A stretch of DNA of 64,000 nucleotides from Vulcanimicrobiota bacterium (lineage in GTDB: Bacteria; Vulcanimicrobiota; JAJTBE01), in the NCBI GenBank assembly GCA_021107945.1, contig JAIORV010000201.1:1-64000 (forward strand), given 5' to 3'. The notes beneath the pieces are model-generated. The model saw only the letters and a list, made by a program, of their open reading frames with translations, ran no database searches and was not told where the DNA came from. A program made the translations under genes and the position numbers. Below are positions 9,307 to 15,891 of the stretch, piece after piece; position 1 is the first letter of the stretch; each line of letters begins with the position of its first letter.

Positions 9307-10275
9307 TTAAAAAAACAATCTGTAAATCAAAAAGATAACTCCACCGGTTAGAAAGAATATGATAATAGCCGCTACGCAACTCCAGTAGGAAATTTTATTA
9401 TCTTCAAACCATGAGGTGGGTCCGGGATTAACTACCTGCATCTTCAGATCCGGACTTCTCAGAGCATGTTTCATATCACGTTTCATATCGGTCAGATTCT
9501 GATATCGCAGACGCGGCTCAATTTCCACCGCTTTTTCTATTATCTTCCGGGTTGCCACTGATACTTCAGGATTCAACTCCTGTATCGCAGGAAGATTAAA
9601 TAAGGATTGGGCGGGATTCTTCCCGGTTAATACATGATAAAGCAACGCGCCTAAATTGTAAACCAGTGTCCTGCGATCAAAAATCCCGTTCTCATCAAAT
9701 TGCTCCGGGGAGGCGTAATCCATCGCGCCCATAACCTTCAATTTACTTGGATCGGTCTCCGTCTGGAATACCCGTGCAAGCCCCAGGTCAATCAATGATA
9801 TGCTGCCTTCCGAATTAACAAGAATATTGGTAAGAGTCAACTCCCGAAAGAAAATAGCCGGGAATTTCTTGTTGAACAGAAAATTCAGAACTTCCGCCAA
9901 CTGCATCCCCCAGTTCAATACATCCTTCTCCCTCAATAGTCCGGCATTCTTCTTCATCAGTGTTTCTATATCGTATGCAGGTATAAATTCCCGAATTATA
10001 TAAAGATTTGCGCCCTCCACAAAAAAATCGATTACCCTGGCAAAGTTGGGATGAGATATCTCCGTCATCTTTATTACTTCCTGCTCAAATTGAGCGATGA
10101 TTTTCTGTCTCTCGAAGCTATCCATCGCAAGAAATTTCATTTCCTTGACAGCCCATAGATTCCCCCTCAAATGAGTATCATCAACAACATAAACATTGGT
10201 GAGTTTACTCTTATGGAGGATCTTTGCTACCCTGTATCTATTCTTTAATATACTGCCCACAGGAAGCGAATGCAT
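9307..10275 (-). CDS. Membrane-anchored Ser/Thr pseudokinase
   Basis: 322 residues with a kinase fold (about 10-272) and one C-terminal membrane helix (about 298-320). The ATP lysine (WAVKEM, K44), DLG (163-165) and SPEQ motifs are kept. The Gly loop is lost (ILHKSKLTNVY), and the catalytic loop reads FRELTLTN (143-150) in place of HRDLKPxN, so the catalytic Asp is Glu and the loop Lys is Thr. The protein is therefore probably inactive or barely active and may act as a partner or scaffold for the active kinase encoded 118 bp downstream. It starts after a strong AAGGAG site. Confidence 0.85.
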   Translation of the reverse strand: MHSLPVGSILKNRYRVAKILHKSKLTNVYVVDDTHLRGNLWAVKEMKFLAMDSFERQKIIAQFEQEVIKMTEISHPNFARVIDFFVEGANLYIIREFIPAYDIETLMKKNAGLLREKDVLNWGMQLAEVLNFLFNKKFPAIFFRELTLTNILVNSEGSISLIDLGLARVFQTETDPSKLKVMGAMDYASPEQFDENGIFDRRTLVYNLGALLYHVLTGKNPAQSLFNLPAIQELNPEVSVATRKIIEKAVEIEPRLRYQNLTDMKRDMKHALRSPDLKMQVVNPGPTSWFEDNKISYWSCVAAIIIFFLTGGVIFLIYRLFF

Positions 10276-12367: not shown

Positions 12368-12515
12368 TTCATAATTCTGCAATAGGGATTATCAAGATGA
12401 GCTTTTTCTTGCCGGGGGTGTTTTATCACCTTCAAATCAATCAATAATCACACTCAACCCGCAGTGGTAAAATAGATTTTTTATGGTAAAATGATTGTCA
12501 AGGGGGGAATATAAT

Positions 12516-14198
12516 ATGCAACCACAGATGCAGAATTACAAGCCTGTCAATAAACCCGATTTCGCCGGGTATATTTCACAAGAGGCAAAGAAGAAATTTA
12601 CCACAAGAGTAATAATCATCATCGCACTGTTTTTCATGCTCAGCAGGGGATTGCCCGAAGGTATGAGACCTTTCTTTGCAGCGAAGGTCGAAGCTATCAA
12701 ATATGCAGAAACATCAAGGGGTACATTCCAGAACGACCATATATGGTATGTGGAAAAGAACTTTGAGGGAAATCGGGCAGAAGATAGTGTATCATACCTC
12801 AAAAAGTTTTCTGTAAAGGGAGAGAATGAATCAGAGAAAATTGCAAAGATTGAGTTAAAAGATCCCTGGCTGCTGGCTGGAAAAGACAGGATATGGATAA
12901 TTTCAAAGAATGGGTGGCAGGAATATTTTGAGGGCAATCTGTCGGAAATATCCGGCGAAGATGATTTTGGGGGAATATCCAAGCCATTCTTATACAACGG
13001 ATCTCCCGCCGTCCTGGATAGAAGAGGCGAAGAAGTATATATATCAACGCTTGAGGACGGAAAATGGAAAAGAGATGTAAAGATTTCTTTAGTTGATGAA
13101 AGCGGATATGCTCCTTCCAAGATAAAAGAAGTTCAGGTTTTAATACATAACAATAATCTCATAGTATTTCACCGCAGGGAAGACAAGGTAAATTATGCCA
13201 CATGCCAAAAATCCGGCGACGGCTTCGAGTTATCAGGCAATTGGGAGAATATCTGCAAGGTTGGAGCCAACTGGTCTGCAATTCTTTACAATAGCAAACC
13301 TGCCGTTGTTGTGGCACAATTCAAGGAGTTCAAGGCATTAAAAAATAAAAACATGAAAACCCAAGATGTTTTTCTCAAATCGATGCAAGAGATCAAGAAG
13401 AATTTATCGGGGCAGGACATCGCCGGGTTCATAAAAAACGGCGATAAGTGGGAGAAGTTTGCGGGATTCAAGGAGAAGATAGTGGGGAGCATGGGGGTTT
13501 TTGCCGATAACGAATCAGGAAGCCTCATTGTATTTTCACAGTTGATCCCACCGTCACTTCGTCTTGTGATATTAGAAGACGGCAGGATGATAAAGGACAG
13601 AACTTTTGACAGGGCATTCAATCTGGGTTCCATAGGTTATATAATAATTGTGTTTATGATTATAATCACATCTATTCCGTTTATCGTTGTGTTTGTGATT
13701 TCAAAGTGGGCTGAGAATTACAGGGTAACGGAATTTTCCTGTGAAGCAGGAAATGCGCCCTATGCTTCGTTGTGGAAAAGGGGAATTGCCCGGTTTATAG
13801 ATACCTTGATATATTTTGCACCTGTAATAGTGGGACAATTTTTCTTCAGTGAAATTTATAAAAACCCGCTGAATATGATATCGCTTGAATTTATCCTCAA
13901 ATTTCTCTTCTTCTTTTTAGCCTGGCTTGTCTGGATGTTCTTTATGGCGATAATTATGTGTTTCCTTGAAGGCAAATATGGTCAGACCCCGGGCAAGATG
14001 ATACTTGGCATAAAGGTTATCGGGGCTGATGATATGATGCCCTGTGGATTCCTGCGTGCCGTTCTTCGATATTTCTGCCTGTATGTTGACGGGATATTCT
14101 CGTATATGGTCGGGATAACAGTTATCGCTTTTACTTTCAGGTGGCAGAGGGTCGGCGACCTTGCCGCGAAGACCGTGGTTGTGGATTTAAACAAATAG
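12516..14198 (+). CDS. RDD-family membrane protein with large extracytoplasmic domain
   Basis: 560 residues from ATG 12516, chosen because AGGGGGG (12501-12507) lies at the right distance; a TTG at 12495 is less likely. One membrane helix (about 28-46) leads to a beta-rich domain of about 320 residues with repeated 'IWYVE..', 'W.ll..kDr.Wi' strands, propeller-like. A membrane helix (about 378-400) and an RDD domain (about 415-550; RFIDTLIYF, GQTPGKMILGIKV, QRVGDLAAKTVVVD) follow. RDD proteins include transporters and accessory membrane proteins; the job of the outside domain is unknown. A paralogue starts 13 bp downstream. Confidence 0.85.
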   Translation: MQPQMQNYKPVNKPDFAGYISQEAKKKFTTRVIIIIALFFMLSRGLPEGMRPFFAAKVEAIKYAETSRGTFQNDHIWYVEKNFEGNRAEDSVSYLKKFSVKGENESEKIAKIELKDPWLLAGKDRIWIISKNGWQEYFEGNLSEISGEDDFGGISKPFLYNGSPAVLDRRGEEVYISTLEDGKWKRDVKISLVDESGYAPSKIKEVQVLIHNNNLIVFHRREDKVNYATCQKSGDGFELSGNWENICKVGANWSAILYNSKPAVVVAQFKEFKALKNKNMKTQDVFLKSMQEIKKNLSGQDIAGFIKNGDKWEKFAGFKEKIVGSMGVFADNESGSLIVFSQLIPPSLRLVILEDGRMIKDRTFDRAFNLGSIGYIIIVFMIIITSIPFIVVFVISKWAENYRVTEFSCEAGNAPYASLWKRGIARFIDTLIYFAPVIVGQFFFSEIYKNPLNMISLEFILKFLFFFLAWLVWMFFMAIIMCFLEGKYGQTPGKMILGIKVIGADDMMPCGFLRAVLRYFCLYVDGIFSYMVGITVIAFTFRWQRVGDLAAKTVVVDLNK

Positions 14199-14211: not shown

Positions 14212-15891
14212 ATGCAACAGTATCATTATACTGAGCCAAAAGTTCCTGATGGCTACAAATCTGCGGACTCAAAGAACAAGTTTTTAACTTATGTCATAAC
14301 CCTTGTTGTGATCCTGTTTGTTGTTCAGATGGGACTTCCATTTGTTCTTATGATTTTTATGGGGCCGATGTTTATGTTTAGTACGATAACAGATATGCGT
14401 GTCGGGCAGATAGATCGGGGGGCATTTTACCGGGGATGTATATGGTACACGGAGACCAACCTGAGTGATGGGCCTAAACTTAAAAGGCTTCATGTTACGG
14501 GGGGTTCGAAGCCTGAAACCGTATGCGATATTCCTATGGGGGATGTCTGGTTGCTGAGCGATAAAGACAGGATGTGGATAGTATCCCGCAACGGTTTGCT
14601 CGAGTACAGGGACGGCAAGATATCAGAGGTATTCAGGAAGAAAATTAAAGCTGAAATATCCAGGCCGTTTTTCTATAAAGGACACCCCGCGATGGTCGTC
14701 GAGGCACAGAGTCATCTTTTCAGAATCCGTTATTTTGATAAGGGCCAATGGCAGGACGGTGAGGAATTCGAGTTGATTGACGAGAGCGAGAGCGGGTGTT
14801 ATTCCTCGGTCTCAAATATCCAGGTACTTAATTGTAATGATAAACTCTACCTTTTTCACAGGCAGGAGACCGGGCTTTACTGCTTCGAAGGCATTCCTAA
14901 TAAGGGCGATAATCTTTCAGGGAAATGGGAAAGTGTCGGAAAAATTTTTGGTGGGGATTGGACGACCACATGTTTTAAAGACAGTCCAACGGTAATAATG
15001 GGAGATTTCCCTGCTCCATTCCAGAGTCCCAAAATCAAAGCTGTCCGGAAGAATGGGGAGCAATGGGAAGAAATTTTTAAACACAAAGTTGGAATCGTTA
15101 CAAACATCGGAGTTTTTCACAGCGGCAAAGGGGATGACCTGTACCTCCTCGCAGGAGGATTTCCCGGAAGCTATCGACTTCTTTCGATTAAAGGAAACAA
15201 AATCATAAAAGATGACAGGTTTGGAAAGAGGGGATTTTCCCCGTTTCCCCCCATTATGGTTGGTATGATGATCTTCTTCAATATACTGATAGCAATAGTT
15301 TTTCCTCTTGCGATAATTATGTTTATTTCAAAATGGATAAAGCAATTCAGGATAATCGGATTCTCATTTAAAGAGAGACAAATACAATATGCCCCGCTAT
15401 GGAAAAGGGCGGTTGCAAAGATAATAGACAGCGCAATATTTTATGCGCCTGCGGTTATTGTTTACCTCTATTTCATACGAGCTTTTTTCAATTTCGAGAT
15501 ATTTTTCCCGTTCGAATTACCGAGTCATTTTTTCCTGATGATACTGGGAGTAATACTCTGGTCCGCGCTCATACTATTTGTATTCAGTTACATGGAGGGT
15601 AGCTCCGGCCAGACCCCTGGAAAACGCATTATGAAAATAAAAGTCCTGTCTGCGGACGACCTTGAGAATTGCGGATTCTTACGAGCATTGGGAAGAAATA
15701 TCGCTATGGTTGTTGACGGGATGTTTCATAGCCTCGTGGGAATCCTTATGATCGCATTTACCGGCAGATATCAGAGGTTGGGAGATATGCTGGGAAGTAC
15801 GATTGTCGTGGATTGTGAAGAACAGAAGTCGGATTACGGAGAACGAAGGACAGAGAACGAATCTGTTGGAGGGATGTCCTCATCCCGATAA
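14212..15891 (+). CDS. RDD-family membrane protein, paralogue with repeat-derived tail
   Basis: 559 residues, same architecture as its upstream neighbour: helix (about 25-45), beta-rich outside domain with the shared 'WLLSDKDRMWIVSRNGLLEY' strand pattern, helix, then RDD (RAVAKIIDSAIFY in the variant RAVAKI form, GQTPGKRIMKIKVLSADD, QRLGDMLGSTIVVD). The strong GAGGGG site fixes the start. The protein should end near VVD as the paralogue does, but it runs on for about 25 residues (EEQKSDYGERRTENESVGG...), encoded by intergenic-type repeat DNA including hairpin family A, which supplies the stop codon. Confidence 0.85.
   Translation: MQQYHYTEPKVPDGYKSADSKNKFLTYVITLVVILFVVQMGLPFVLMIFMGPMFMFSTITDMRVGQIDRGAFYRGCIWYTETNLSDGPKLKRLHVTGGSKPETVCDIPMGDVWLLSDKDRMWIVSRNGLLEYRDGKISEVFRKKIKAEISRPFFYKGHPAMVVEAQSHLFRIRYFDKGQWQDGEEFELIDESESGCYSSVSNIQVLNCNDKLYLFHRQETGLYCFEGIPNKGDNLSGKWESVGKIFGGDWTTTCFKDSPTVIMGDFPAPFQSPKIKAVRKNGEQWEEIFKHKVGIVTNIGVFHSGKGDDLYLLAGGFPGSYRLLSIKGNKIIKDDRFGKRGFSPFPPIMVGMMIFFNILIAIVFPLAIIMFISKWIKQFRIIGFSFKERQIQYAPLWKRAVAKIIDSAIFYAPAVIVYLYFIRAFFNFEIFFPFELPSHFFLMILGVILWSALILFVFSYMEGSSGQTPGKRIMKIKVLSADDLENCGFLRALGRNIAMVVDGMFHSLVGILMIAFTGRYQRLGDMLGSTIVVDCEEQKSDYGERRTENESVGGMSSSR
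15864..15891 (+). repeat. Hairpin repeat family A, copy 5 (forms gene 3' end)
   Basis: Stem variant GGGATG-TCCT-CATCCC. It encodes the last residues and the stop codon of the second RDD gene. Confidence 0.8.

Follow-up and report, generated by a model that had tools for sequence, protein, structure and literature searches.

The protein described here (A) has a kinase fold and a predicted tail anchor. From the residues that it has lost, it is probably dead as a catalyst or nearly so, and at what we judge an even chance it acts as a membrane docking platform for a neighbouring FHA protein (C), regulated by a sensor kinase (B) where the latter is present. In the window (i.e., the whole stretch of 64,000 nucleotides analysed) the three genes follow one another on the same strand in the order A, B, C, with 117 bp between A and B, 0 bp between B and C, and no terminator-like site listed by a pattern scan in the A-B gap (Table 1). 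The first-pass annotation had placed a kinase-sensor fusion and an FHA protein directly after A, and this arrangement is confirmed. AAGGAG stands eight bases 5′ of the ATG of A.

Table 1. Features of the window discussed in the text
Feature	Positions	Strand	Remarks
A, pseudokinase, predicted tail anchor, 322 aa	9307..10275	(-)	ATG start; kinase fold residues ~4-280; C-terminal membrane helix ~299-317
FRELTLTN codons (A residues 143-150), replacing [HF]RDxKPxN	9826..9849	(-)	
B, Ser/Thr kinase + sensor, 799 aa	6790..9189	(-)	GTG start; FRDIKPSN, DFG, activation-loop Thr174; membrane helix ~360-378
C, FHA protein, 258 aa	6013..6789	(-)	N-terminal membrane helices ~6-24 and ~39-57; FHA 106-168; Thr-rich tail
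RDD-family membrane protein, first of a tandem	12495..14198	(+)	large N-terminal part without Pfam match
RDD-family membrane protein, second of the tandem	14212..15891	(+)	large N-terminal part without Pfam match

The window's A matches the Pfam kinase model (Pkinase, PF00069) with 91.2 bits against a cut-off of 31.7, the same model was matched in all 18 A proteins scanned with Pfam, and only kinase models match. Its structure model (pLDDT 85.2 from 18 sequences, with the activation segment at low confidence) is a kinase fold, closest among the matches listed to Stk1 (Z 25.9, rmsd 3.6, 256 aligned) and PknB (Z 25.1, rmsd 2.6, 245 aligned), the closest solved structure by sequence profile being StkP (2.1e-44); no MviN or EssB chain is among the best 50 structure matches listed for the model, which has no bearing on relation. 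A single hydrophobic helix (299-317) is followed by just five residues to the C-terminus, and a C-terminal hydrophobic helix is present in all the 26 A proteins of the family described below.

In place of the Gly loop the window's A reads ILHKSKLTNVY, with zero glycine, and FRELTLTN occupies the site of HRDLKPxN, both as originally noticed, while Lys44, Glu66, Asn150 and Asp163 (of DLG) are kept. All three features of catalytic competence considered (Gly loop, catalytic Asp and the Lys of KPxN) are absent. Read from the sequence, the losses that count in FRELTLTN are Asp to Glu, Lys to Thr and Pro to Leu, to which those of the Gly loop and of the alphaF Asp are to be added. The Phe of FRE, counted earlier as part of the degeneration, does not belong to it, because 21 of 21 neighbouring B kinases read FRD at the same place.

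A was searched for in 58 genomes and then, with an 18-row profile, in 149 genomes of the phylum (Eremiobacterota, called Vulcanimicrobiota at NCBI), which are draft assemblies, some of them 61-72% complete. It was found in 26 of the 149, one of these being ambiguous. In 25 genomes it scores from 467 down to 271 bits, followed by B and other paralogues at no more than 265.5 bits, whereas the 26th (locus L050 of genome G002) scores 244 bits, under its own B (260), and was included, with uncertainty, by tree and position. None of the remaining 123 genomes of the phylum gave a score of at least 270 bits with the A profile, and the best of them (L165 in G003, 247.8 bits) is canonical in its Gly loop and reads FRDLKLSN and DFG. 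Outside the phylum, five named genomes contained no A-like protein by profile A1 (best 147.5 bits), and 244 genomes of the phylum of Phormidium gave matches of up to 249.6 bits in 17 genomes, the two best of which (L169 and L170) are canonical kinases and not A. A scan of named genomes with P0001 alone returned nothing; with profile A1 it returned 22 loci, 17 of them presumably already counted and five weak.

Degeneration runs through the whole family. None of the 26 A proteins has kept the alphaF Asp (24 have Leu there), and the Gly loop is gone from all 25 that cover it (23 without any glycine and two with one), L046 starting after the loop and so leaving a gap there. The Pro of KPxN is lost in 25 of 26 and its Lys kept in only four. 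The catalytic Asp is missing from 18, where Glu (15), Asn (two) or Arg (one) takes its position. Asn150 (24 of 26), the Asp of DFG (Asp163, 25 of 26) and the alphaC Glu (Glu66 in 23, with Asp in two and Thr in one) persist. The previous statement that the ATP-binding Lys remains holds for the window's A and not for the family, where 11 proteins have Lys at the beta3 position and 15 have Arg. The B kinases, on the other hand, are canonical in 21 of 21 at the catalytic sites tallied, save for a single row with a substitution at one Gly-loop position (a B-like protein of the window's own genome, L056, was excluded from this count). The pseudokinase assignment is well supported by the residues of A, while its neighbour is canonical. 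At position 95, which we take to be the gatekeeper, 25 of 26 A proteins have Arg and all 21 B have Met. Four catalytically complete paralogues of the genome also have Arg95, so this residue is no proof of a blocked pocket, and the idea that it blocks one was dropped.

Orthologues with a canonical HRD had been proposed as the sign of a recent or local mutation. Such orthologues do exist in part, as eight of the 26 A proteins keep the Asp and three of them (L036, L037 and L040) read HRD, yet these three are without Gly loop, alphaF Asp and the KP of KPxN, and L048, where YRDFKPQN is whole, has the beta3 Arg and no Gly loop. In five species pairs dN/dS of A is 0.048, 0.062, 0.064, 0.070 and 0.114, ratios that are rough since dS approaches or exceeds 1 for three of the five; A is under purifying selection. 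For B, three pairs give 0.06-0.15 and L036/L040 gives 0.49, the B frame of L036 being short (641 aa). With the whole family degenerate and purifying selection acting on it, a local or recent mutation of A is ruled out. In a tree of 116 kinases, all 26 A form one clade against the 90 others, with a local support of 0.68 that becomes 0.98 for the 25 without L050. The B clade is separate, though its outer nodes are weakly supported (0.93 for the inner 20, then 0.71 and 0.27 at the two nodes further out), which rules out that A is a recent duplicate of B.

The company of A is conserved. Two of the 26 loci, L037 and L044, are truncated by a contig end; in 23 of the other 24 an FHA gene comes after A, directly or past B, the exception being L050, with A and B and no FHA gene within 13 kb. 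B adjoins A in 21 of 26 loci and is absent in L033, L035, L041 and L042 (family f8) and in L048 (f5). In the five genomes without B the best match to B spans just its first 300 residues (i.e., the kinase part), and the best-matching kinases, one to four per genome, place outside the B clade (clade support 0.54; the coverage filter may have dropped some kinase rows from this test), which speaks against B having merely moved elsewhere. As the A tree puts f8 beside B-bearing lineages, B was probably lost in f8. With the FHA gene in 23 of 24 loci and B missing in five of 26, the constant pair is A and the FHA protein. The trio noticed in the window is conserved, and the allosteric signalling suggested for it is possible without being the whole function, because five genomes from two families keep A and the FHA gene with no B.

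Other genes recur around A. Nine neighbour families, of which one or two members each were scanned with Pfam, comprise ABC transporter parts, UvrD, LigA, MgsA, YfhO and one without match. Four genes lie upstream of A and divergent from it in L034, L038, L043, L044, L049, L052 and L053 (in L034 an ABC ATPase, an ABC-2 permease, ABC_transp_aux and DUF4340), and a UvrD-like gene is found in such a place in L029 and others. A family of ~340 aa comes after the FHA gene in f8 and f12 (L029, L033, L035, L041 and L042); its L033 member has no Pfam match, and it could be a further partner. The locus was also considered as a defence system and rejected as such, since its PADLOC hits (PD-T4-6 and mad6) look like generic kinase matches.

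The window's C matches FHA in Pfam, most C rows have two N-terminal membrane helices, and residues G108, R109, S123, H126, N145 and N150 of the FHA domain are invariant in the 22 C proteins aligned (out of 23). These (GR, SxxH, N) are presumably the residues that bind phosphothreonine, and their conservation favours a docking that depends on phosphorylation. The tail of C varies in its Thr motifs by lineage, with T[EQ]xW in 11 of 22 (0.1 in shuffled tails) and TGT in five, the window's included. Acid-flanked Thr occurs in 17 of 22 tails, against a shuffled mean of 11.0 and with 17 reached in two of 1000 shuffles, although the kinship of the C rows makes these tests lenient. In GarA-like FHA proteins the FHA domain binds the protein's own tail; as T[EQ]xW is found in only half of the C tails, self-binding of this kind is equally possible for C. 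The window's B matches Pkinase and Peripla_BP_6 in Pfam, the latter being found in three of 19 B proteins, and a low-confidence model of the B sensor (16 sequences, pLDDT 69) finds its match among the periplasmic binding proteins of type I (3hut, E 2.7e-14, TM 0.64, rmsd 6.9). All 21 B kinases keep the activation-loop Thr, whereas only 11 of 26 A have a Thr in the matching segment.

A gene set kept in so many families of a phylum that has been little studied makes a regulated docking platform a likelier fate for this dead kinase than a broken gene, and the constancy of the A and FHA pair points to FHA recruitment. If such interpretation is correct, A would hold C at the membrane through a putative A-C contact, whilst the binding-protein domain of B would read a small-molecule signal in the periplasm. 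B might then phosphorylate the juxtamembrane stretch of A, the Thr-bearing tail of C, or both, and the A-C complex would be turned on or off by this phosphorylation. In genomes that have lost B, another of their kinases, or none, could stand in its role. A Thr is available in the juxtamembrane stretch or the activation segment of all 26 A proteins; however, the juxtamembrane stretch contains no conserved Thr motif (three of 26 have no Thr there at all), and this counts against a common phospho-docking site on A.

It is the lack of a conserved phosphosite in A, together with an A-C linkage that persists without B, that would fit a scaffold in the manner of YukC/EssB, where A binds C constitutively as a structural hub, independently of phosphorylation, and B only senses. 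A precedent comes from the YukC pseudokinase domain, which copurifies with the FHA region of YukB in a contact that, in the portions of PMC9600267 available, appears independent of phosphorylation and forms in E. coli, where its authors know of no typical Hanks kinase. The same portions, however, describe the FHA domains of YukB and EssC as devoid of the residues that bind phosphothreonine, which 22 of 22 C proteins keep, and we consider the constitutive scaffold quite unlikely. An allosteric partnership, in which A would activate or restrain the kinase domain of B through a back-to-back N-lobe face of the PknB type, draws on the adjacency of the two genes in most loci and on A residues that align with the PknB dimer face and are well kept (Arg13 in all 25 proteins aligned there and Asp83 in 25 of 26). 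One structure alignment with PknB starts by placing model residue 13 on PknB residue 10, PDB titles name the mutants L33D and D76A, and we take PknB residues 10, 33 and 76 to form the dimer face. Yet Arg13 and Asp83 are common in the other kinases of the genome (53 and 52 of 68, respectively), so they are no mark of an A-B contact, and they persist in the A proteins of the five genomes with A and C and no B. As these genomes retain A and the FHA protein all the same, allosteric control of B is not the whole function of A, and as its main function we hold it unlikely, even though the back-to-back PknB dimer has been proposed, in the text available of PMC6333020, to act allosterically in autophosphorylation.

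More doubtful still is that A remains an enzyme or a nucleotide switch, holding Mg-ATP by Lys/Arg44, Glu66, Asn150 and Asp163 for a weak or atypical transfer, or signalling its nucleotide state. The positions concerned are largely preserved (Lys or Arg at 44 in 26 of 26, Glu or Asp at 66 in 25, and Asn150 and Asp163 as given above), the HRD Asp survives in eight proteins, and RDFKPQN is intact in L048. Pseudokinases substituted at such sites can still bind nucleotide, and the replacement of the beta3 Lys by Arg is, in the sections available of PMC12599244, compatible with ATP binding in some of them. Against this stand the loss of the Gly loop and of the alphaF Asp throughout, the near absence of KPxN (Lys in four of 26, Pro in one) and the Arg at the gatekeeper position, the last weakened by the four complete paralogues that share it. 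The docking platform, with C as its constant partner, is the explanation that we prefer.

A is not the only kinase of its genome to have decayed. Of its 71 Pkinase domains, 18 (A included) are without at least one of the beta3 Lys, the HRD Asp and the DFG Asp (L091 and L111 may be alignment slips), making this kinome rich in pseudokinases. Contig C50 (L171:1202-4619) carries an active kinase and, after it, a fusion of zinc-ribbon, degenerate kinase and PP2C phosphatase. Contig C140 (L172:804-3990) has another pseudokinase/kinase tandem, in which 94 bp separate a zinc-ribbon pseudokinase (HRNIKPSK, lacking DFG) from the active kinase with a beta-propeller that comes next. L169 and L170, from the phylum of Phormidium, likewise have an active kinase and then a degenerate one; the degenerate kinase of L169 has an end that looks PP2C-like by eye, and the degenerate kinase of L170 can be aligned to the C50 protein across 403 columns. 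The three are possibly one kinase/pseudokinase-phosphatase pair found across phyla, and no title to the point on pseudokinase-PP2C fusions was among those listed in a literature search.

Two known systems resemble the one described here. In mycobacteria PknB phosphorylates the tail of the MviN pseudokinase and FhaA is recruited there (available parts of PMC12599244 and PMC11898655), so that MviN (Rv3910, of the ActPs3 family), PknB and FhaA parallel A, B and C as a membrane-linked pseudokinase, an active receptor Ser/Thr kinase and an FHA protein. MviN, however, is a large membrane protein described as a lipid II flippase (in the part available of PMC11898655), unlike the small, tail-anchored A with its kinase matches only; its pseudokinase has lost the ATP Lys, HRD and DFG according to Table 1 of PMC12599244, whereas A keeps Lys/Arg44 and the Asp of DFG; and the sensor of B is modelled as a periplasmic-binding-protein fold and not as the PASTA of the PknB system. 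In type VII secretion, EssB/YukC combines, like A, a cytosolic pseudokinase and a membrane helix, and it binds an FHA-bearing partner, EssC/YukB (PMC9600267, as available), as is proposed for A and C. It differs in having an extracytoplasmic C-terminal domain, for which the window's A has no room past its helix, and in its FHA partner, since C retains the phosphothreonine-binding residues; and the recurring neighbours of A identified, from one or two members scanned per family, include no secretion genes. The best reading, by analogy, is that the A system would work like MviN-FhaA or YukC/EssB whilst being a member of neither.

Single kinases and pseudokinases offer further comparison. The PASTA kinases StkP, Stk1 and PknB are the closest among the solved structures listed, but A has no PASTA match in Pfam and its catalytic motifs are lost. 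YabT of Bacillus subtilis shares with A a layout that lacks a receptor domain, its kinase domain being joined to a membrane helix at the C-terminus; YabT autophosphorylates, however (with FGD and DVG), and, in the accounts available, has no FHA partner described. The bacterial pseudokinases ActPs1-3, GLW, CP1, DYD and DLHK, several with a C-terminal membrane helix, include two, ActPs2 and DYD, that share the beta3 Arg with A (available sections of PMC12599244, as for the rest of these families). ActPs2 departs from A in having HRN, mostly a deletion of DFG and, in about 90%, a loop insert of 250 residues, and DYD in lacking the alphaC Glu that 23 of 26 A retain. Sections 4, 6-8, 10 and 12-14 of that review describe no family with Glu at HRD and both DFG and the alphaC Glu kept, a full-text literature search for pseudokinases in Eremiobacterota found no paper, and a pseudokinase/kinase/FHA trio as found here does not appear in the titles and abstract openings listed.

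On these grounds we tentatively propose, while leaning slightly to the side of doubt, that A represents an undescribed family of bacterial pseudokinases, set apart from the reviewed ones by their descriptions (no Gly loop, mostly HRE, alphaF Leu, gatekeeper Arg and tail anchor), with a membrane FHA protein as its core partner and the sensor kinase as an optional one, and that it would be a third separate case of a pseudokinase paired with FHA beside MviN-FhaA and EssB-EssC. If so, FHA docking might be a task for which bacteria generally use dead kinases, a matter of some weight given that, according to the available sections of the 2025 review (PMC12599244), very little is known in molecular detail about what bacterial pseudokinases do. 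With its natural variants, which keep or lose the HRD Asp, the beta3 Lys and the neighbouring kinase, the family offers a compact system in which to ask what dead bacterial kinases do, and whether the docking of FHA proteins, as in MviN-FhaA and EssB-EssC, is their common task.
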